DNA of 64,000 bases, taken from NCBI RefSeq assembly GCF_000969905.1, contig NZ_CP009520.1:806001-870000 (forward strand), given 5' to 3'. The notes under the pieces are model-generated. The model had not been told where the DNA came from. It saw only the letters and a program-made list of their open reading frames with translations, and ran no database searches. This document shows, one piece after another, positions 5,700 to 20,680 of this stretch (position 1 is the stretch's first letter; each line of letters starts with the position of its first letter). The DNA is from Methanosarcina vacuolata Z-761 (GTDB taxonomy: Archaea > Halobacteriota > Methanosarcinia > Methanosarcinales > Methanosarcinaceae). Both the position numbers and the translations under genes were made by a program.

Positions 5700-6221
5700 T
5701 CAGGTTTTAAGTTCACCTACGTCTTCAAGTTTTTTAACAACTCTTGCAGGATAGCCCAGGGCAAGACTATTTGGAGATATATCGCGGCTAACTACAGATC
5801 CGATACCTATTATTGAGTTATCCCCTATTTCAACACCCTGCGTGATTATACATCCTGGATTCACAGAGACTCCACTTCCGATTTTTATGGGAGCCATAGT
5901 TCTCGGGTATGCCTGTCTTGTAGTCAAACTTCCTCTAGTATGTGCAGATAATATGCACCTATCGCCGATTTCAGAGTAATCTCCTACCGTGATTAATTCA
6001 GGGTGTATCCTATCAAAAATCACGTCATAACCGACATATACATTCTCCCCGAGATTTACACCCCGCATCCTGTGTAATTTAGCTCTCCATGAAGGAATGG
6101 GAGCGCTTGAAGCAAGCCGTTCCAGAATCCAGTTTTTAAAATATTTAATGCCAAAAAGAAGTTTATTACTGTGATAATGGTCCGCGATTTCGCAAAAGGT
6201 TACTTGATCTCGATTAGACAC
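5700..6221 (-). CDS. Left-handed beta-helix (hexapeptide) acetyltransferase
   Basis: This 173-residue protein has a hexapeptide-repeat C-terminal part (IGSGVSVNPGCIITQGVEIGDNS..., residues about 110-155). It ends with the family marker LALGYPARVVKKL. This is the WbbJ/maltose-acetyltransferase type fold, a trimer with acetyl-CoA and acceptor bound between subunits. The usual catalytic His appears as ILSAHTRG (about residue 93). The acceptor is probably a sugar, but this is inference. The start is a GTG at 6221 with no convincing Shine-Dalgarno. It does not sit next to other sugar genes; the glycan locus is at 37-50 kb. Confidence 0.85.
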   Translation of the reverse strand: MSNRDQVTFCEIADHYHSNKLLFGIKYFKNWILERLASSAPIPSWRAKLHRMRGVNLGENVYVGYDVIFDRIHPELITVGDYSEIGDRCILSAHTRGSLTTRQAYPRTMAPIKIGSGVSVNPGCIITQGVEIGDNSIIGIGSVVSRDISPNSLALGYPARVVKKLEDVGELKT

Positions 6222-6713: not shown

Positions 6714-7853
6714 TTAACTTTTGCTTCTGCTCACAAGCTTCATAAGCAGTGATTTTTTTAATTCTACCGCATCGTTAGGGCAAAGTTCGCGGCAGCAATA
6801 ACAGTGAATGCATTTTTCCTCGTTAATTTTGAGTGCCCTGTTTATTTCCTCAATTGCATGCACTGAACAGTTTGAAACGCAGGCTTTGCAAAGTGCACAG
6901 TTTGAAGTGTTAATAATTGGCCTTACAGCTAACTGCTTTCGAAGGATTTTCTTAAGGAAAGCTGGTATATAAGCCGTAATTCCACCTTCAGGGCTTTTGA
7001 ACCTGACCTTTACTTTTTCCAGAGGCGTCCCTACAATTTCAGGATGCTCGGTCCCGAATCCTCTTTCTAATGCAGCTTTATTTGTAGGGACTTTCAAGGG
7101 ATCGATTCCTATAAGTTCGGAGGCTACAATATCCAGGGCTACGCAGTCATAACTTGCCATAATCACGCCTGAAAAGACAGGTGTACCATTGGAGGGACCA
7201 TTTCCTTCCATTCCGACCACCCCGTCCATAACTGCAAGCTGGGGCTTGACAACAGAATATATATCAACAACTGCTTCCCCAAAACGGTGGCGGTCTTCCA
7301 GGAAATGAGCCTGTTTTCTGGTTTTTTGAGGTACGGCACCGAAGAAATTTTTGACTGCTCCTGTATACAATGTGAGTTCATGGGTCTTGAGCTTTGGAAG
7401 CGAGATTACTACATCTGCTTCGAGTACAGCTTTTGAGATGTACAGATGAGAAAACTGCCTTGCACCTGGAACATCAACCTCAACAAAACCTGAGGTCTCA
7501 AAATTGATAAGCTCAACTCCATGGTCGGAAGCAACACCCTCAATGCCGGACGCTTTAAGAGCCTGCGAAGTCGTAGTAAATCCGGGTTTTACAATGCCGG
7601 ATCCATCTCCTATAACTGGAATGCCTCCGGCTTCTGAGACAAGTTCGCACATAGCGGACACTATCGCTGGATGGGTGGTAACGGCATCCTCCGGCGGCCG
7701 GATAGAAAGCACATTGGGTTTGAGGAGGACGCGGCTTCCAGGAGCTATAACTTTCTCAAGCCCACCTATCAGGTTTAATGCTTCCTTTACCGCTTCTTTC
7801 GCATTCGAGTATTCCTGGCATTCAACAATTGAGACCCTTGTATTCATATTCAC
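6714..7853 (-). CDS. DUF362 protein with C-terminal 2[4Fe-4S] ferredoxin domain
   Basis: This 379-residue protein has a DUF362 core (residues about 1-290; LLKPNVLS...TTHPAIVSA near the N-terminus and VISLPKLKTHELT at about 150-162). A ferredoxin domain follows (residues about 320-370) with CALCKACVSNC and CIHCYCCRELCP. The DUF362 fold is common in anaerobes as an iron-sulfur protein of unknown chemistry. The fused ferredoxin suggests it accepts or donates electrons. It lies 240 bp downstream of the NAD-synthetase-like gene on the same strand, so it could be the last gene of the carrier-protein cluster, but the spacer makes this uncertain. The start ATG at 7853 has only a weak Shine-Dalgarno (GTGTGA). 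Confidence 0.88.
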   Translation of the reverse strand: MNMNTRVSIVECQEYSNAKEAVKEALNLIGGLEKVIAPGSRVLLKPNVLSIRPPEDAVTTHPAIVSAMCELVSEAGGIPVIGDGSGIVKPGFTTTSQALKASGIEGVASDHGVELINFETSGFVEVDVPGARQFSHLYISKAVLEADVVISLPKLKTHELTLYTGAVKNFFGAVPQKTRKQAHFLEDRHRFGEAVVDIYSVVKPQLAVMDGVVGMEGNGPSNGTPVFSGVIMASYDCVALDIVASELIGIDPLKVPTNKAALERGFGTEHPEIVGTPLEKVKVRFKSPEGGITAYIPAFLKKILRKQLAVRPIINTSNCALCKACVSNCSVHAIEEINRALKINEEKCIHCYCCRELCPNDAVELKKSLLMKLVSRSKS

Positions 7854-8093: not shown

Positions 8094-9086
8094 TTACCTG
8101 TTAATGTAGCAAACAGGCGGCGCGGCTCGTATATATTCTGTGTTATCTTTTATTCTACTGATATGCCTCTGGGCTTTTTCTATTGTCTCTCTGGACAACC
8201 CGGTGTTCTTTTCAATTGCCTGCAGGGGTAAATGGTGCTCCTGGGCATACAGTAGTTGATCCATGATCTGAATCGGCATGCGCCAGTAGAATTCCTCGTC
8301 AGTTGTGTAATGGCTCCAGGTATCAGCACTTGGAGGACGCTTTATGATCTCTTCATTAACATTGAGCAGCTTCCCCAGAGCATAAACCTGGACTTTATAG
8401 CAGTCCGCCAGAGGCTCAAGATCTACGCCTCCATCCCCATATTTCACAAACTGGCCAAGGACCATTTCGGTCTTGTTGGTCGTACCGCAAACTGCGTAAT
8501 TCATCGTTTCGGCATACATATATTGAACGAGCATTCTGGATCTCTGTTTAACACCCTGCAATCCTATTAATTCAAGATAATCAGTCGCTTTTAGCCGGTA
8601 CTTCCCAACAGTTTCACCATTTTTCACAAGGCGGATATAAGGAACATTTAGCAGTCCAGTGTTGAGAAAATCAGGCAGCATCAACGACGTTTTATGTATT
8701 CTGGCATCATACTCCGGGCAGGCTTTCTTTATAATCTGTTCTTTCTTATCATAGATATTAAGCGATCTTAGAATAGGAGAGATCGGCACTTCTTCATACG
8801 ACACACCCAGGCTTTCACAGATCTCTGCTCCCAGAGTCTTGCTGGAAGGGGCAGATTCTTCTTCAGGAAGGAGAAGTCCATACACGTTTTCTTTTCCGAG
8901 TTCCTGTACACATAGGGTAAGTATCACTGCGGAGTCAATACCTCCCGAAACCCCTATAACGACTCCTTTTTTCTTAAAACCCGTTACCTGATCTCTAATA
9001 AAACCTCTGAGCTTTAAAGCTATATTTTCAATATTCCCATTGAGTTCTTCCATTATATTCATGCTCATTTCTTCTGTAATCTGCAT
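8094..9086 (-). CDS. NAD-synthetase-like ATP-dependent amidotransferase (PP-loop)
   Basis: This 330-residue protein has the NadE fold: PP-loop GVSGGIDSA (residues about 45-53), GTTNKTEMVLGQFVKYGDGGVDLEPLADCYK-type core in the middle and a PSADTW loop where true NadE proteins have P-T/S-A-x-L-W. It lacks a glutaminase domain, so it would use free ammonia. NadE adenylates a carboxylate and replaces AMP by ammonia to give an amide. The protein is longer than normal archaeal NadE (about 250-270 aa), with an extra segment at about 105-165. Its neighbours are an adenylation enzyme, a carrier protein and a second PP-loop enzyme, not NAD genes. A role in amidating a pathway intermediate is therefore at least as likely as NAD synthesis. 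A Shine-Dalgarno GAGGGGG precedes the ATG. Confidence 0.82.
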   Translation of the reverse strand: MQITEEMSMNIMEELNGNIENIALKLRGFIRDQVTGFKKKGVVIGVSGGIDSAVILTLCVQELGKENVYGLLLPEEESAPSSKTLGAEICESLGVSYEEVPISPILRSLNIYDKKEQIIKKACPEYDARIHKTSLMLPDFLNTGLLNVPYIRLVKNGETVGKYRLKATDYLELIGLQGVKQRSRMLVQYMYAETMNYAVCGTTNKTEMVLGQFVKYGDGGVDLEPLADCYKVQVYALGKLLNVNEEIIKRPPSADTWSHYTTDEEFYWRMPIQIMDQLLYAQEHHLPLQAIEKNTGLSRETIEKAQRHISRIKDNTEYIRAAPPVCYINR

Positions 9087-9122
9087 AACATTACCCCCTC
9101 AAATAATCAGATTTTTAAAATT

Positions 9123-9248
9123 AGACTGTTCAAGTTCGACTGTTTAGGTTAGACTGTTCAAGTTCGACTGTTTAGGTTAGACTGTTCAAGTTCGACTGTT
9201 TAGGTTAGACTGTTCAAGTTAGACTGTTCAAGTTAGACTGTTCAAATT
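9123..9248. repeat. Tandem array, 14-bp period (AGACTGTTCAAGTT / CGACTGTTTAGGTT)
   Basis: Nine contiguous 14-mers alternate between AGACTGTTCAAGTT and CGACTGTTTAGGTT for three 28-bp rounds. Three copies of the first type then follow. The array fills most of the 192-bp gap between the PP-loop gene (9279) and the NadE-like gene (9086) inside the carrier-protein cluster. It will be transcribed if the cluster is one operon, and its length is likely to vary between strains. Confidence 0.92.
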
Positions 9249-9278
9249 AACTGGTATGGTTTAATCTTTATCTTATAA

Positions 9279-10316
9279 TCAGATTTTAACAAGTATTTTT
9301 TGTGATTTTTTTACTTTCAGTTCAAGCTTTCTTGCAGCCTCTTCTATCAATGGCTGTGACAGTTCCTGGTTAATTTTTTCAAGCCCTTCTTCCCTTGACA
9401 TTTCCCCGCTTCGAACAAGCCCTGCTACGTCAAAGGCATATGGATGAAACCCATACTTCTCCATGTGATTGTAGCAGGCAAAGGAGTTCAACGTACAGTT
9501 AGTTGAATTGCTGTCACTGATTCCCGGAAGTTCCCACCCGACTTCCAGAAGGGTTTCAAGCACTTTGTCTTCACTGTAATCCCACAGGCACAGAGGATGC
9601 AGAATACTCGGAACGTTTTCACCTGTGTTCTCAAGAACTTCTTTTTTCAGGAGGAATATTTCATCCTTATCATCAATACCTATTTTCTGAAGCTGTTTTT
9701 CAAATAAGCTTCTAGACCACTGGATAAAATTGACTGATAGGTTGATTATGGGATTAGGAGACTGTCCAGCTGTAAAGGCAAATACAACGAAGGGTGCTTT
9801 TTGAATAATAGCCTGCTCTATCAATTTCTGTTTAATAATAGTGATGCAAACATTGCATATATCACTGGCTCGATATTTGGCAAACTTTGGAAATGCATCG
9901 TATGACTCTGCAGCTTTTCGGAATGTATCATAAAGAATTTCCTTTTCCATTGTCAACTGGAAATAATCGCATCCTGTGATCTTGCACATTTTTTTTGCAT
10001 TTATTATTGCGTTTTCCGAAGTGAACCCGTTATCGAACTGCACAGCCAGTACTTTAAGGAAAGGATAGTCTTTTTTGAGCTTGTAGAGCGTGTAAGACGA
10101 ATCTTTCCCACCTGAAAGTGCATAAATTATATCGTAGTTCCCCTTTCCCCCGTACTGCTTAAAAAGTTCTTCTATTCTGGCCAGGTATTCTTTTTTTTCC
10201 TGTGAACTAAGAGGAGTATATGTCTCACAGAAGTGGCAGAGGCCTGTTTCCTCATTAATTTGTATACCTGGAATCTCGGAATCCAGAACACACTTTTTAC
10301 ATACTAGCTTTGACAT
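9279..10316 (-). CDS. PP-loop ATPase of the N-acetyl-sugar amidotransferase (WbpG-like) family
   Basis: This 345-residue protein starts with a zinc-ribbon-like part, Cys6-x2-Cys9 and Cys27-x2-Cys30 (SKLVCKKCVLDSEIPG then LCHFC). The PP-loop YALSGGKDSSYTLYKL follows (SGGKDS at residues 68-73). A middle CxxC (Cys153, Cys156) and a C-terminal FDVAGLVRSGEMSREEGLEK segment are typical of the WbpG-like group. These enzymes adenylate a carbonyl or carboxyl oxygen and replace it with nitrogen; related alpha-hydrolases install sulfur. No HisF/HisH-like ammonia partner is nearby, unlike the sugar-acetamidine pathway. The gene overlaps the adenylation gene by 20 bp, indicating tight coupling, so the substrate may be the carrier-bound acid. 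Confidence 0.8.
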   Translation of the reverse strand: MSKLVCKKCVLDSEIPGIQINEETGLCHFCETYTPLSSQEKKEYLARIEELFKQYGGKGNYDIIYALSGGKDSSYTLYKLKKDYPFLKVLAVQFDNGFTSENAIINAKKMCKITGCDYFQLTMEKEILYDTFRKAAESYDAFPKFAKYRASDICNVCITIIKQKLIEQAIIQKAPFVVFAFTAGQSPNPIINLSVNFIQWSRSLFEKQLQKIGIDDKDEIFLLKKEVLENTGENVPSILHPLCLWDYSEDKVLETLLEVGWELPGISDSNSTNCTLNSFACYNHMEKYGFHPYAFDVAGLVRSGEMSREEGLEKINQELSQPLIEEAARKLELKVKKSQKILVKI

Positions 10317-11775
10317 GTTTGTATTCCTCTATAATGGATCGATTGGATATCTTCCCATTCTCGCTCAAGGGAAGGTGATCAATGAATAGTATTTCTCTTG
10401 GGCACAGGTAGCCTGGCAGGCTATTTCGGCAGAACGCAAACAGCTTTTCAATTTCTGTCCCTGCTCCGGGTATGACCATGAGGCTAATTGCGGTCCCCAT
10501 AAGCTCATGGTGCACAGGCACGACAAAAACTCTGGATCCTTCGTTATTTTCCTCTATATTTCTCTCAATTTCTCTTGGGTTAATGCGATGATCACCGATT
10601 TTTATAAGATCATCCTTGCGTCCCAGTAGTTTGATATATCCGTTGGGTAATTTCTGTGCGAGGTCGCCGGTATGCAGCCACCCGTTTATAATTCTCATTT
10701 CAGTGGCGATTTCATCATCCAAATAACCCAGCATAATGTTATCTCCTGTAGCAACCAGTTCACCCGTAATATTAGGTTTTGCTGGTCTGTACTCGGAATC
10801 AAAGACATCCAGTGTAACCCCTGGAATTGCTTTTCCTATAGTGCCAACGAACTCATCTACATCTTCTGCTGGCAGGTAAGCAAGCCTTGCCGTAGCTTCA
10901 GTTTGCCCATACATAGGCAGAATCTCCAGATCTGGAGTTAATCCCCTTATATCTTTTACAATATCCTTATCCATCCCTCCACCTGCCGATGCGGCGGTTC
11001 TAACGCCTGCAAAGACCCTTTTGAATCTATCCGGATATCGAAGGAGTATACGGTAGGTACTGGGTACCCCATAGAATATTGATACACCTGACCCTATAAG
11101 GTTGAAAACAGAGTCTATAAAATTCATATTTCCAATCCTGATTGAACTGCCAGATACCAGATGGGAGTTAATTATGGAATTCCCAAAAGCGTGATGTGGG
11201 GATATCACCAGTGCTCCTTTATCTCTGGAAGTTATCCTGAGTACCTTTATTATTGATTCTGCATTTGATGCCAGATTTCGGTCGCTTAACATTACCCCTT
11301 TTGGGGTGCCTGTCGTGCCTGAAGTGTAAAGAACCAGTTGTAGTTCCGGATTATTTTTTTCGACTTCAATCTTCTTGCGCAAAATCTCTCCAGAAGTATT
11401 GCCGGAAATAACTATTACAGTTCCAAAACGCTCAAAAAAATCCTCTCCAAATCTTGAGTACTGTGTATCGGTTGCGATGATATTGTTGACATGGGCAGCA
11501 TCAAGGATTTTCTCAAGACTGAATTTGGGAAATTCTGTTGGTAGAGGAATTGCGATATTGACAGAGCGATATACCGCCATGAGTATTTTCACATACAGTA
11601 TGCCTGATTCTGCCAGTATTGCAAATCGGCAGTGGTTAAAATCCATTAAAGGCGAAGCAATAGAGTTTATATCATTGTCAAGGCAGTCATAGGAAATTGA
11701 ACTTTTTCCCTCTTCCAGGGCAATGCTTTGAGGAGTTTTTCTAGCGTACTCAGTGATATACGCATCAATTCGCAT
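10297..11775 (-). CDS. AMP-dependent acyl/aminoacyl ligase (free-standing adenylation enzyme)
   Basis: This 492-residue protein has the complete ANL-superfamily core set. A3 is YTSGTTGTPKGVML (about 150-163) and A5 is MYGQTEA. A7/A8 is WLHTGDLAQKLPNGYIKLLG with R-DDLIKIGDHRINPREIE, and A10 is LPLSENGKI with the catalytic lysine close to the C-terminus. It should activate a carboxylic acid as an acyl-adenylate and transfer it to a thiol, here most likely the phosphopantetheine of the carrier protein encoded 6 bp upstream (11782-12027). The substrate cannot be read from the sequence. The order carrier protein, ligase, PP-loop enzyme with gaps of 6 and -20 bp marks an operon. Confidence 0.9.
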   Translation of the reverse strand: MRIDAYITEYARKTPQSIALEEGKSSISYDCLDNDINSIASPLMDFNHCRFAILAESGILYVKILMAVYRSVNIAIPLPTEFPKFSLEKILDAAHVNNIIATDTQYSRFGEDFFERFGTVIVISGNTSGEILRKKIEVEKNNPELQLVLYTSGTTGTPKGVMLSDRNLASNAESIIKVLRITSRDKGALVISPHHAFGNSIINSHLVSGSSIRIGNMNFIDSVFNLIGSGVSIFYGVPSTYRILLRYPDRFKRVFAGVRTAASAGGGMDKDIVKDIRGLTPDLEILPMYGQTEATARLAYLPAEDVDEFVGTIGKAIPGVTLDVFDSEYRPAKPNITGELVATGDNIMLGYLDDEIATEMRIINGWLHTGDLAQKLPNGYIKLLGRKDDLIKIGDHRINPREIERNIEENNEGSRVFVVPVHHELMGTAISLMVIPGAGTEIEKLFAFCRNSLPGYLCPREILFIDHLPLSENGKISNRSIIEEYKHVKASM

Positions 11776-11781
11776 GACTTT

Positions 11782-12027
11782 TCACTTCGCCAGTTTAGTT
11801 ATCATATTAGTGATTCCCTGCAGTGAATCAAAGTTTTCCGGTGTCAGCATATCTTCAGGAATCTCTATAGAATATTTTTCACAGATATAGTCCATAAGCT
11901 CAAGCAAGCCAATGGAATCTATAATACCGGTTTGAGTGAGAGAATCATTATCTTTCAAACTGCTGTTACTGTCCATAAAAGAATTAGCCTTTAAGTAACC
12001 GACTATATCATTCTTTATTTGTTCCAT
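11782..12027 (-). CDS. Free-standing acyl/peptidyl carrier protein
   Basis: This 81-residue four-helix carrier protein has the phosphopantetheine attachment motif IIDSIGLLELM. Ser38 is the modified residue and lies at the start of helix 2. The C-terminus (DMLTPENFDSLQGITNMI) matches the helix 3-4 region of ACP/D-alanyl-carrier-like proteins. Archaea normally lack fatty-acid-synthase ACPs, so a dedicated carrier protein points to a special biosynthetic route. It is the first gene of a tight operon with the adenylation enzyme, and a matching phosphopantetheinyl transferase is encoded about 350 bp upstream. The ATG has a GGGGGT stretch about 8 nt upstream. Its promoter lies inside an inverted-repeat element (12040-12174). 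Confidence 0.9.
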   Translation of the reverse strand: MEQIKNDIVGYLKANSFMDSNSSLKDNDSLTQTGIIDSIGLLELMDYICEKYSIEIPEDMLTPENFDSLQGITNMITKLAK

Positions 12028-12039
12028 TTATTAATACCC

Positions 12040-12174
12040 CCAGCGTTTTTGTTTAGCGGACCAGTGATCATAAATAACGCATTTCTGCCCATAATGACGT
12101 GAGTCCCAAGAGATAATTACGTAATACAACTATATAAATAATTTGAGTCACTTCCTGGCTGATAAAAACGCTGG
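12040..12174. mobile_element. MITE-like inverted-repeat element upstream of the carrier-protein operon (135 bp)
   Basis: CCAGCGTTTTT at 12040-12050 and AAAAACGCTGG at 12164-12174 are perfect 11-bp inverted ends. The similarity continues imperfectly inwards for about 15 more bases (TAGC..AGTGA on the left, complement of TCACT..GGCT on the right). No target duplication is obvious, so an old insertion or simply a large regulatory hairpin are both possible. The palindrome ATTACGTAAT (about 12116-12125) and the likely TATA box of the operon lie inside it. Confidence 0.55.
12127..12145 (-). promoter_or_regulatory. Probable BRE/TATA promoter of the carrier-protein operon
   Basis: Read on the minus strand, CAAATTATTTATATAGTTG contains a TTTATATA box (12131-12138) preceded by an A-rich BRE-like stretch. 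Transcription would begin near 12108, leaving a leader of about 80 nt before the carrier-protein ATG at 12027. The promoter lies within the inverted-repeat element 12040-12174. Confidence 0.5.
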
Positions 12175-12375
12175 TGGAGACAAAATTCAAGTAAAGTCAA
12201 TTGCTTGCATTCGGATTCATTGGATGATATCCTTTATTCACACACTAAAAATATATATTTAGTATATTCTCCATACAATCGGCTATTCATATGCGCACAG
12301 ATAAACCCGAAAAATATAGAAAAATGTGCAGAATTTTAAACTACTTTTTTAAACTTTAAATTTCATAGAAAATCT

Positions 12376-13071
12376 TCAGTCCCAGTTACATTCGATTTTT
12401 TGAAGACGATTTATATCGATGATGTGCGATTCCGAACAGGTTACAATAGAGAATAAATATTTGTTGTCTATAATCCAAGTTAAATGATTAACACTGTTGA
12501 GGTCCAGTTCTCTATTAAAAATAAGATGCATCTTTTTGTTTGAAAACTTGGAATAGGCTTCTTTTAAAGTCCATATTTTTAAAAAATCGGTTTCATCTAC
12601 AGTTTCGTCCATGAGTGAAGTTTTCTTATACAGGTTTTTAATAATACTTTTAAGAAACAGCTTTCTCACAAGTTCAATATCAATACCAACAGCAACCTTT
12701 GAGATTGCAAGGGCTGCAAGGCTCTCGGTATAAGATATACAAATGCATAGTTCATTGTGGTTAAGGACACAGACCTTCCCATTTTCGTTTTTGTATGTGG
12801 ATATTTCGGAGGCGGATCGCTCATTAGCAACCTTGCATATGATATGTTTTAAAACCGTTCTGGAGACAATATATCTTTTCTTAAAGTGGTTTGTCTTCAA
12901 CCTCTCGAGATATTCCAGTTCTATCCTGCTGAGGTAACTTGTGTTGAATGTATCATAATTATCCAGGTCAACAAGAAAAACAAGAACATCACTTTGTTGC
13001 CACAGGTAAGGGATATGTTCAAGAGAAACAGGGAAAGGCAACTTTAAATAATCGTTGTACATGTAGTCCAC
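12376..13071 (-). CDS. 4'-phosphopantetheinyl transferase (Sfp/AcpT type)
   Basis: This 231-residue protein has both hallmark motifs of the Sfp-type family. The magnesium-binding VGIDIE is at residues 128-133 and the WTLKEAYSK motif (W-x3-EAxxK) is at 167-175. KKRYIVSRTVLKHII (about 64-78) matches the usual N-terminal CoA-contacting helix. It transfers the phosphopantetheine arm of CoA to the active serine of a carrier protein; the carrier at 11782-12027 is the obvious client. The gene is more AT-rich than its neighbours, a hint of transfer. The start is a GTG at 13071, with an ATG three codons later. TATA-like ACTATATACT sits about 20-30 bp upstream, so its transcript may be almost leaderless. 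Confidence 0.88.
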   Translation of the reverse strand: MDYMYNDYLKLPFPVSLEHIPYLWQQSDVLVFLVDLDNYDTFNTSYLSRIELEYLERLKTNHFKKRYIVSRTVLKHIICKVANERSASEISTYKNENGKVCVLNHNELCICISYTESLAALAISKVAVGIDIELVRKLFLKSIIKNLYKKTSLMDETVDETDFLKIWTLKEAYSKFSNKKMHLIFNRELDLNSVNHLTWIIDNKYLFSIVTCSESHIIDINRLQKIECNWD

Positions 13072-19514: not shown

Positions 19515-19898
19515 TTAGCATCTGACTTTAATCTTAACGATTGCACAATCGGTTTTTCCATCCTTACCTTTTACACAGTATTTGAAACTGTCAATACAAG
19601 ATTTTTTGCAACTCGCTGGCTTTGTGTAGCAGAATTTACCGTTACTCTTCATACATACCTTGCCGCCCAGTTTGGTAGTAAAGCATCCTGTAGATGTAAC
19701 TTTAAGGTTGCATCCTTTGTCATTACTCAGCACGTTATAGCAACAAGACTTGCATTTACAATTGAATGTATCGTTTATTGCATCTGTTTTACACTTGTTC
19801 TTATTGCATGAGGTGTTGAATGCGGCTGCTCCTGTCATTGACATGACAAAGAAGAGCAACGTAAAAATACATATTGTCTTGAATAAAGTTCTTCTCAT
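19515..19898 (-). CDS. Secreted cysteine-rich single Ig/cadherin-like domain protein
   Basis: This protein of 127 residues has a signal peptide (MRRTLFKTICIFTLLFFVMSMTGAAA). About 100 mature residues follow that contain 15 cysteines. The backbone pattern (AINDTFN...YNVLSNDKG-NLKVTSTG...SNGKF-YTKPAS...DSFKY-VKGKDGKTD-AIVKIKV) matches the repeat unit of bacterial cadherin/VCBS-type Ig-like domains (AVNDT...NVLAND...LTVTSVG...GTITYTP...DSFTYTVSDGNGGTDTATVTITV). Cysteines replace residues on adjacent strands, so cross-strand disulfides or metal binding are likely. The start is the ATG at 19898, 6 nt after GGAGGG; a longer frame upstream lacks a Shine-Dalgarno. It should be surface-exposed or released. 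It has no operon partner. Confidence 0.8.
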   Translation of the reverse strand: MRRTLFKTICIFTLLFFVMSMTGAAAFNTSCNKNKCKTDAINDTFNCKCKSCCYNVLSNDKGCNLKVTSTGCFTTKLGGKVCMKSNGKFCYTKPASCKKSCIDSFKYCVKGKDGKTDCAIVKIKVRC

Positions 19899-20680
19899 TT
19901 TATACCCTCCATAGTATACACTCAACCATAAAATATTCAAAGATATCGATTTTTAAGTCCGATTTTCACTGGTGATGAAAATATACTCTTCCGGATTAAA
20001 ACCCCCGATTTAGCAGGGAGATATATTTTCATATGATTGAGTGATCTTTCTATGCTATTTCTTAACAAACAGTTAAAAAATAAACAGTCTATTGTATGTT
20101 TTTATTTACCTCTTACTTCTTCGAAAATATAGGTACTCTTCAATGTGCTCAGTATTAGCATCAATTTCAGTAATTAACCTTATATGTCAAATTAAGGTTA
20201 AAAATTAAAACGCAGTATTACAAAACACATAGAAAATGATCCAACATCTTTGCGAAAAAGTTACAAGAGTTCACAATTAGAAATAGTCACTCCTTTTATT
20301 AAACATTTTCTCTTTAATTTACTTGCAACTGTTGACTGTGTGGACTTATTAAAAAAAGTCACAGAGTGTCAGCAATACCTGGATAGAGACAAATAGTTAT
20401 GTGTAGACTATGCAGTTGTCACCGAATAATCTACACACAGATTTGAGATAATGAAATTATGTATCTATTCCTGAACTGCAAATTTGAAGTTATATTTTCA
20501 TCATTCCTAAAGAGAACAGAAAAATGGAAAGAAGGTTGAAATAATAATGGAAGATGAAATATAAAGAACAAACAAAAATAAGAAAGACTAAAAGTAAGAA
20601 AAATAACAACTGAAGAGAAGCTATACTGAATCTAGAAAGATTTCAAAGTGATTATACAAACGTCATAAGAGTAACCACTT
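19899..20680. other. Long AT-rich intergenic region with one hairpin
   Basis: This 780-bp stretch contains no convincing gene. An imperfect inverted repeat lies at 20400-20437: TGTGTAGACTAT pairs with ATAATCTACACA, 12-bp arms with one mismatch and a 14-base loop. It could be an operator or a short structured RNA. The rest is AT-rich and unremarkable. Confidence 0.5.

Follow-up and report, generated by a model that had tools for sequence, protein, structure and literature searches.

The thioamide synthetase CtaC of the closthioamide pathway (Ruminiclostridium cellulolyticum) is a proven carrier-dependent [4Fe-4S] enzyme, with the cysteines C154/C157/C284 and the PP-loop residues D77/S78 (PMC6772006). 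The [4Fe-4S] sulfurtransferases NcsA, TtuA, TtcA and LarE also combine a PP-loop with a CxxC pair and another cysteine, and their substrates are tRNA or a pyridinium cofactor precursor. The WbpG/PseA/LegA family (TIGR03573) is characterized by zinc-ribbon cysteines, an SGGKDS loop and a frequent setting in glycan loci. It includes the WbpG homologue MMP1081 of M. maripaludis, which is required for the acetamidino group on the archaellin sugar (PMC2952790). Rhizobial-type plasmids harbor asnB-ACP-ANL-nadE operons, for which no function is described in the literature searched. Moreover, bacterial amino sugars can receive ACP-dependent acyl decorations, like the modified viosamine of the Pseudomonas syringae flagellin, where an ACP and an acyltransferase give the sugar an unusual N-acyl group; PP-loop enzymes are not known from such loci. 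To our knowledge, carrier-bound chemistry of this kind has rarely been described in archaea, which are generally regarded as having no carrier-protein pathway. Literature searches for Methanosarcina with ACP and PPTase, for Methanosarcina with N-acetyl sugar amidotransferase and for a cluster of ACP, NAD synthase and asparagine synthase returned nothing relevant.

The analyzed window, a stretch of 64,000 nucleotides of Methanosarcina vacuolata Z-761, contains an intact set of five genes on the minus strand. The first, with a GTG start, encodes a 231-amino acid Sfp/HetI-type 4'-phosphopantetheinyl transferase (PPTase, 12376-13071; PF01648, 26.0 bits, cut-off 25), recognizable by the motifs VGIDIE and WTLKEAYSK. 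It is followed by a free acyl carrier protein of 81 amino acids with serine 38 in DSIG (ACP, 11782-12027; PF00550, 22.7 bits, cut-off 20.8), a 492-amino acid acid:carrier ligase of the ANL superfamily (10297-11775; PF00501, 165.7 bits, and PF13193, 38.4 bits), a WbpG-fold PP-loop (AANH) protein of 345 amino acids, here called WBP (9279-10316), and a NadE-like NH3-dependent amidating enzyme of the PRK00876 subfamily, 330 amino acids in size (8094-9086). Pfam or NCBIfam matches for each gene confirm the original prediction of five genes on one strand with these motifs. The predicted spacing is also exact, with 6 bp between ACP and ANL and a 20-bp overlap between ANL and WBP. Co-translation is supported for these three genes only, since all other gaps are larger: 348 bp between PPTase and ACP, 192 bp between WBP and NadE-like, and 240 bp between NadE-like and the next gene, for a DUF362 protein. 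The 192-bp gap is occupied by a 14-bp tandem repeat without strand assignment, AGACTGTTCAAGTT and variants, in about nine units (9123-9250). A scan for promoters and terminators of the locus gave background level only.

The set is conserved well beyond this genome. Among the 30 loci of Methanosarcinaceae and Methanomicrobiales with sufficient flank, the gene for WBP lies beside those for ACP (30/30), the NadE-like enzyme (29/30), ANL (28/30) and PPTase (24/30). Because these neighbors are kept in 24 to 30 of the 30 loci across both groups, the five genes are an old functional unit; they are not scattered in relatives, as a refutation of the prediction would have it, and stay together across two archaeal orders. 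The PPTase gene is unlinked in one genus-level group, and the PF01648 profile misses some of the divergent PPTases. Each gene is under purifying selection, with dN/dS values of 0.04-0.33 against related species, and this, together with the cohesion across two orders, shows that the association is not due to chance. The distribution is patchy, the cluster being missing from two Methanosarcina genomes and from most genomes of the group taken as Methanolobus; a role in methanophenazine synthesis was dropped for this reason. In Methanosarcina acetivorans, both a carrier protein and a WbuX-type protein were detected.

Taken as a whole, the locus is best explained as encoding a dedicated carrier-protein pathway in methanogenic archaea, at a probability of roughly 0.5, each chemical step being deduced from sequence. 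The ACP and the PPTase are the sole matches to PF00550 and PF01648 in the genome, and S38 of the ACP is invariant among 12 aligned sequences. A conserved serine motif and a PPTase above its cut-off, linked in most loci, are what a type II carrier-protein system displays. Judging from its family, the PPTase very probably attaches phosphopantetheine to the ACP. The core motifs of ANL, and the lysine of SENGKISNR, are invariant in the alignment. Its substrate is probably a carboxylic acid and unlikely to be an alpha-amino acid, because the A4-type aspartate is missing (SPHHAFGNS). Very probably, ANL would activate this acid and load it onto the ACP. In many relatives, a FabG-like gene is found alongside the cluster, and its reductase may adjust the acyl chain.

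WBP contains the PP-loop SGGKDSS (S68-S73, including D72/S73), N-terminal zinc-ribbon cysteines (C6/C9/C27/C30) and the three cysteines C154, C157 and C274, which are invariant in 24 aligned sequences, including a Campylobacterota protein without the zinc ribbon. The original prediction recognized the ribbon and the CxxC pair, and overlooked the third cysteine. The pair, CNVC, lines up with CSYC in the NcsA-type thiolase that the organism also encodes; this alignment concerns the CxxC only. A PP-loop of the type SGGxDS, with CxxC plus a third cysteine, is the pattern of [4Fe-4S] sulfur-inserting AANH enzymes (NcsA/TtuA, CtaC), and in WBP, C154, C157 and C274 are the predicted ligands of such a cluster. 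Compared by residue positions, CtaC has the same arrangement of CxxC and distant cysteine. The two systems also share stand-alone carrier and ligase genes, an anaerobic host and, putatively, a carrier-bound substrate; the partner carrier protein of a CtaC-type enzyme is present here as the ACP adjacent to WBP in all 30 loci, and in the NRPS-embedded homologue described below. NcsA, TtuA, TtcA and LarE differ from WBP in their substrates, as WBP is carrier-linked. WBP, whose link to the carrier is quite likely, would adenylate a carbonyl of the carrier-bound substrate. That it then swaps the carbonyl oxygen, most likely for sulfur, yielding a thioamide-type group, has about an even chance. No sulfur-mobilizing gene was found in the block, and the closthioamide cluster likewise lacks one.

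The fold itself speaks for a sulfur-free route, in which the NadE-like enzyme makes an amide and WBP an amidine with free ammonia, like PseA/LegA/WbpG, the product decorating a sugar. The AlphaFold2 model of WBP (pLDDT 92) has as its first Foldseek match 8wex (E 6e-14, TM ~0.70), an N-acetyl sugar amidotransferase of this amidine-type family, followed by NcsA/TtuA/LarE. The MMP1081 precedent concerns an archaeal archaellin sugar (PMC2952790), and the clusters of relatives lie among glycan genes. Against this, WBP scores 120.4 bits with TIGR03573 (N-acetyl sugar amidotransferase WbuX), under the curated cut-off of 203.2, and differs from the family by its three cysteines, by the lack of HisH/HisF and by being always adjacent or fused to a carrier. 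None of the 76 WBP loci has the ammonia partner HisH/HisF beside it, except two that also hold a classical WbpG copy; there, HisH/HisF adjoin that copy and not WBP. Across the WbuX family at large, the tri-cysteine is gained or lost as a unit, and HisH/HisF are neighbors of 9 of the 21 cysteine-free members versus none of the 10 tri-cysteine ones (Fisher p 0.03, kinship ignored); the HisH/HisF-linked subfamily lacks the tri-cysteine. We consider the amidine route doubtful. The tri-cysteine was also considered as a mark of WBP alone. This was rejected, as it occurs in other WbuX branches, and the claim now covers only the STNC clade of carrier-linked proteins.

All carrier-linked WBPs, archaeal and bacterial, form one clade in the tree (support 99/97). 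One bacterial WBP is inserted in an NRPS adenylation domain, ahead of the PCP; another is fused to a condensation domain, next to A-PCP and asnB; others adjoin ACP and KS. These NRPS-fused homologues and the third invariant cysteine strengthen the thioamide option that had been proposed. A Subdoligranulum match considered as a relative of CtaC was rejected, being a cysteine-free WbpG. The occurrence of the clade in Streptomyces and Roseobacter NRPS systems, the analogy with CtaC and the main Methanosarcina copy without adjoining glycan genes would also suit a secondary metabolite that is made and released in free form, as a closthioamide-like product or a signal, without decorating a glycan. 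The block lacks genes for condensation, peptidyl transfer or a thioesterase, as well as any obvious export gene, and glycan neighbors recur in other genera, among them the Roseovarius NRPS locus with WBP, which carries polysaccharide export and sugar nucleotide genes; such a metabolite is therefore unlikely. The predicted resemblance to the entire closthioamide cluster is not supported: none of the block's seven genes encodes an ATP-grasp or a transglutaminase/peptidyl transferase, the NadE-like partner and the glycan context are new here, and WBP has a WbpG-type zinc ribbon and fold.

The NadE-like enzyme reaches 477 bits with NF002048 (PRK00876, NAD(+) synthase; cut-off 313), versus 186 bits for the canonical NadE of the genome. 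With the canonical profile PRK13980, it scores 202.7 bits and fails the cut-off of 255, and the other NadE scores 346.5. This canonical copy, encoded at C2:1298401, removes the main objection to the prediction, that the NadE-like protein might be the only NAD synthetase. It could still be a plain second one, leaving ACP, ANL and WBP to cooperate alone: it exceeds the TIGR00552 nadE domain cut-off, its AlphaFold2 model matches NadE in Foldseek, in line with the overall NadE fold, and 192 bp separate its gene from that of WBP. This is very improbable given its adjacency in 29 of 30 loci, its distinct subfamily, and an insertion of about 50 amino acids and an altered GQTDE motif, common to carrier-linked bacterial relatives that adjoin ACP and ANL. 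Those on rhizobial-type plasmids belong to the same NadE subfamily, and their operons, mostly with a GNAT-like gene, have the glutamine-dependent amidating AsnB in place of the archaeal WBP. A search of plasmids with ANL at 1e-60 gave no match. It is reasonably likely that the NadE-like enzyme adenylates the free carboxylate of a carrier-bound or free acid and forms an amide with free ammonia. In the preferred reading, this amide would be what WBP then converts, probably into a thioamide. The original interpretation is partly supported: its idea of a carrier-bound acid handled by two PP-loop enzymes is backed by the conserved set, the sole ACP and PPTase, and a NadE-like enzyme that is not the sole synthetase.

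The neighboring genes point to surface glycans as the destination. Around the archaeal clusters, UDP-GlcNAc 3-dehydrogenase (519 bits, cut-off 450), WecB (430 bits), WecC/nucleotide-sugar dehydrogenases, an AglG-like glycosyltransferase and flippases were identified. This support comes from the loci of relatives and from second copies in two genomes; no glycosyltransferase lies beside the main Methanosarcina copy. In Methanosarcina, the candidate for the acyl acceptor step is a left-handed beta-helix (hexapeptide) acyltransferase of 173 amino acids (5700-6221, minus strand; PF00132, 38.6 bits). Its orthologue, with at least 82% identity, is present in 28 of the 29 cluster-bearing Methanosarcina genomes and in neither cluster-free one. 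Methanomicrobiales loci have a GNAT acyltransferase partner instead. With slightly favorable odds, these acyltransferases would transfer the group to a surface glycan, onto either an amino sugar or a lipid-linked sugar, as in the viosamine-type decoration, which is bacterial. The glycan context and the FabG-like and acyltransferase partners, all found here, were missing from the earlier account.

The most specific version of the carrier pathway, a thioamide or otherwise O-to-S-exchanged acyl group made on the carrier and placed on surface glycans, with a NadE-type amidase supplying a new WbpG-fold enzyme that has a [4Fe-4S] cluster, is less likely than not. If true, it would be, as far as we know, the first case of thiotemplated sulfur chemistry in archaea and of a thioamide decorating a glycan, and the NRPS-embedded bacterial clade would add another family, the second, to the thioamide synthetases that act on carrier-bound substrates. 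With this cluster, a testable carrier-protein pathway becomes available in an archaeal lineage that is genetically tractable, and the WBP clade offers a new handle on thioamide- or amidine-containing products. The carrier-linked tri-cysteine clade separates from proteins annotated as 'N-acetyl sugar amidotransferase', and the carrier-linked NadE clade from 'NAD(+) synthase'; both annotations are probably misleading in many bacterial and archaeal genomes.

Downstream of the five genes lies a DUF362 protein of 379 amino acids with a 2x[4Fe-4S] ferredoxin domain (6714-7853, minus strand; PF04015, 207 bits), for which a redox step in the pathway had been suggested. A close orthologue occurs in nearly all cluster-bearing Methanosarcina genomes and in neither cluster-free one, and the gene is absent at the Methanococcoides, Methanolobus and Methanomicrobiales loci. 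It is a lineage-specific accessory, outside the core.

The minus strand of the window carries the genes of a phosphopantetheinyl transferase of the Sfp type (PPTase, 12376-13071), an acyl carrier protein (ACP, 11782-12027), an acid:carrier ligase (ANL, 10297-11775), a WbpG-fold PP-loop protein (WBP, 9279-10316) and an enlarged NadE paralogue (NadE-like, 8094-9086). Genes for a DUF362-ferredoxin (6714-7853) and a hexapeptide acyltransferase (5700-6221) come next. All were assigned by sequence and profile search in this Methanosarcina-type genome (4.56 Mb, two contigs). This confirms the five-gene set on one strand seen in the original prediction; its interpretation, a carrier-protein pathway with two PP-loop amidating or thiolating enzymes, is partly supported. 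The claimed close spacing holds for ACP, ANL and WBP, with 6 bp between the first two and a 20-bp overlap between the last two, and not for the rest: as the remaining gaps measure 192-492 bp, tight coupling is limited to these three genes. In the gap between WBP and NadE-like, a 14-bp unit is repeated in tandem about nine times (9123-9250). Every gene of the block is under purifying selection (dN/dS 0.04-0.33). In a profile search of the genome, the ACP is the only match to PF00550 and the PPTase the only one to PF01648.

WBP occurs in most Methanosarcina genomes, several further Methanosarcinaceae genera, Methanomicrobiales and a bin that bears the label Thermoplasmata; a more distant version is found in one Helicobacteraceae genome. 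A search for the five-gene neighbourhood in relatives found the genes together: among 30 loci in which WBP has 3.5 kb or more of flank on each side, the ACP lies beside it in 30, NadE-like in 29, ANL in 28 and the PPTase in 24; genomes of one genus-level group (g12) have a PPTase that is not linked to the cluster. In Methanomicrobiales, the gene order is shuffled and the partners are retained, which favors a shared function over a frozen order. Two of 31 Methanosarcina genomes (G088 and G090) lack WBP, and in both the hexapeptide and DUF362 proteins likewise have no close orthologue; hence, the block acts as seven genes in this genus. Some genomes hold two or three copies of the cluster, like the Methanosarcina genomes G104 (L046-L048), G080 (L074-L075) and G075 (L072-L073); some of these copies lack the PPTase or NadE-like, and one is apparently flanked by transposase-like fragments. 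Stronger PF01648 matches were seen in Methanosarcinaceae genomes without the cluster (G061:C1:1960180, G036:C2:1016849 and G088:C3:37385), two of them of about 135 residues, the size of AcpS. Further archaeal carrier-protein systems may exist besides this cluster.

Profile and fold say that WBP is WbpG-like. It scores 120 bits against TIGR03573 (WbuX), the N-acetyl sugar amidotransferase family that includes WbpG, and does not reach the cut-off of 203. The top Foldseek match of its AlphaFold2 model (pLDDT 92) is 8wex, a Legionella N-acetyl sugar amidotransferase (TM ~0.70); next come NcsA and TtuA, both [4Fe-4S] thiolases, with LarE after them. Besides the zinc-ribbon cysteines, WBP contains C154, C157 and C274, which do not vary across 24 sequences, one of them a bacterial member that has lost the ribbon. 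In alignment, its CxxC falls exactly on the CxxC of the host's own NcsA-type thiolase. In CtaC, a thioamide synthetase that uses only a carrier-bound substrate and requires a [4Fe-4S] cluster, the cysteines are C154, C157 and C284 and the PP-loop residues D77/S78 (PMC6772006), compared to 154/157/274 and 72/73 in WBP.

Among WbuX relatives, the three cysteines are all-or-none, being gained or lost jointly. HisH/HisF are the ammonia source for amidine enzymes. They adjoin 9 of 21 cysteine-free members, whereas none of the 10 members with three cysteines has them as neighbors (p 0.03, relatives counted as independent). Two loci, L088 and L129, contain one member of each kind, and there they adjoin the classical WbpG. 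This pattern favors sulfide or free ammonia as the nucleophile of WBP, sulfur appearing the likelier.

Several homologues are joined to carrier systems. Plasmids of Roseovarius and Pseudohalocynthiibacter encode a WBP-type domain with the full set of signature cysteines, in Roseovarius located within an NRPS adenylation domain, immediately ahead of its carrier domain. On a Streptomyces plasmid, the domain is fused to a condensation domain, with an A-PCP protein and asnB alongside; in another Streptomyces, it adjoins an ACP and a ketosynthase. The Helicobacteraceae gene follows an ACP in a sugar cluster of the NeuB/PseI type that also contains a FabD-like gene. In the tree, 17/17 carrier-linked proteins fall on one side of one branch (support 99/97). 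From these fusions, this adjacency and this branch, WBP most likely works on carrier-bound substrates. In the Roseobacter plasmid loci L130 (9421-17469) and L131, the NRPS with the tri-cysteine WbpG-type PP-loop domain inserted in its adenylation domain is neighbored by polysaccharide export, flippase and acylneuraminate cytidylyltransferase genes. Outside the carrier-linked clade, archaeal WbuX-type proteins with the three cysteines (L145-L150, L152, L171 and L178) are probably another Fe-S PP-loop family, misnamed sugar amidotransferase.

The NadE-like protein is not the organism's sole NAD synthetase, an objection that the original prediction had raised against itself: a canonical NadE is encoded at C2:1298401. 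NadE-like falls in the NCBI subfamily PRK00876 with 477 bits (cut-off 313). Its relatives on rhizobial-type plasmids fall there too (489-501 bits); the host's canonical NadE scores 186. It has a ~50-residue insertion, lacks the canonical GQTDExELG segment and is predicted to adopt the NadE fold (model and structure search). Relatives are found in asnB-ACP-ANL-nadE operons on plasmids of Shinella, Rhizobium, Nitratireductor and Roseateles (L133-L136), where the label "NAD synthase" is probably wrong. In three of the four, a GNAT-like gene comes first, an assignment made by eye, with no Pfam match for one such gene checked. These operons and the archaeal clusters thus follow one scheme, in which a carrier and a ligase are combined with a PP-loop enzyme that uses ammonia, and the second partner is either AsnB or WBP.

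The archaeal clusters have glycan genes as neighbors: UDP-GlcNAc 3-dehydrogenase and nucleotide-sugar dehydrogenase in Methanococcoides, WecB and a WecC-type dehydrogenase in Methanolobus, glycosyltransferases and flippases at second Methanosarcina copies, and an aminotransferase, GNAT and flippase in Methanomicrobiales. This suggests amino sugars of surface glycans as the endpoint of the acyl group. Because no glycosyltransferase was found adjoining the copy in the window, its glycan destination is putative. A comparable case is known in archaea: the archaellin of M. maripaludis bears an acetamidino sugar whose synthesis involves the WbpG homologue MMP1081 (PMC2952790). This pathway is not known to use a carrier. 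A FabG-like reductase lies beside the archaeal clusters in 15 loci.

From the observed genes, conservation, motifs, fusions and co-inheritance, we infer the substrate, an Fe-S cluster, the acceptor and the following reactions. ANL would load an acid onto the holo-ACP, NadE-like would convert a carboxylate to an amide using ammonia, and WBP would adenylate a carbonyl and exchange its oxygen, probably for sulfur. FabG could reduce the acyl chain, and the hexapeptide or GNAT acyltransferase would transfer the finished group. The system represents a new form of acyl modification on a carrier, a type of chemistry that is uncommon in archaea. Elsewhere on the minus strand of the window (19515-19940), a small cysteine-rich protein of 141 residues, apparently secreted, is encoded.
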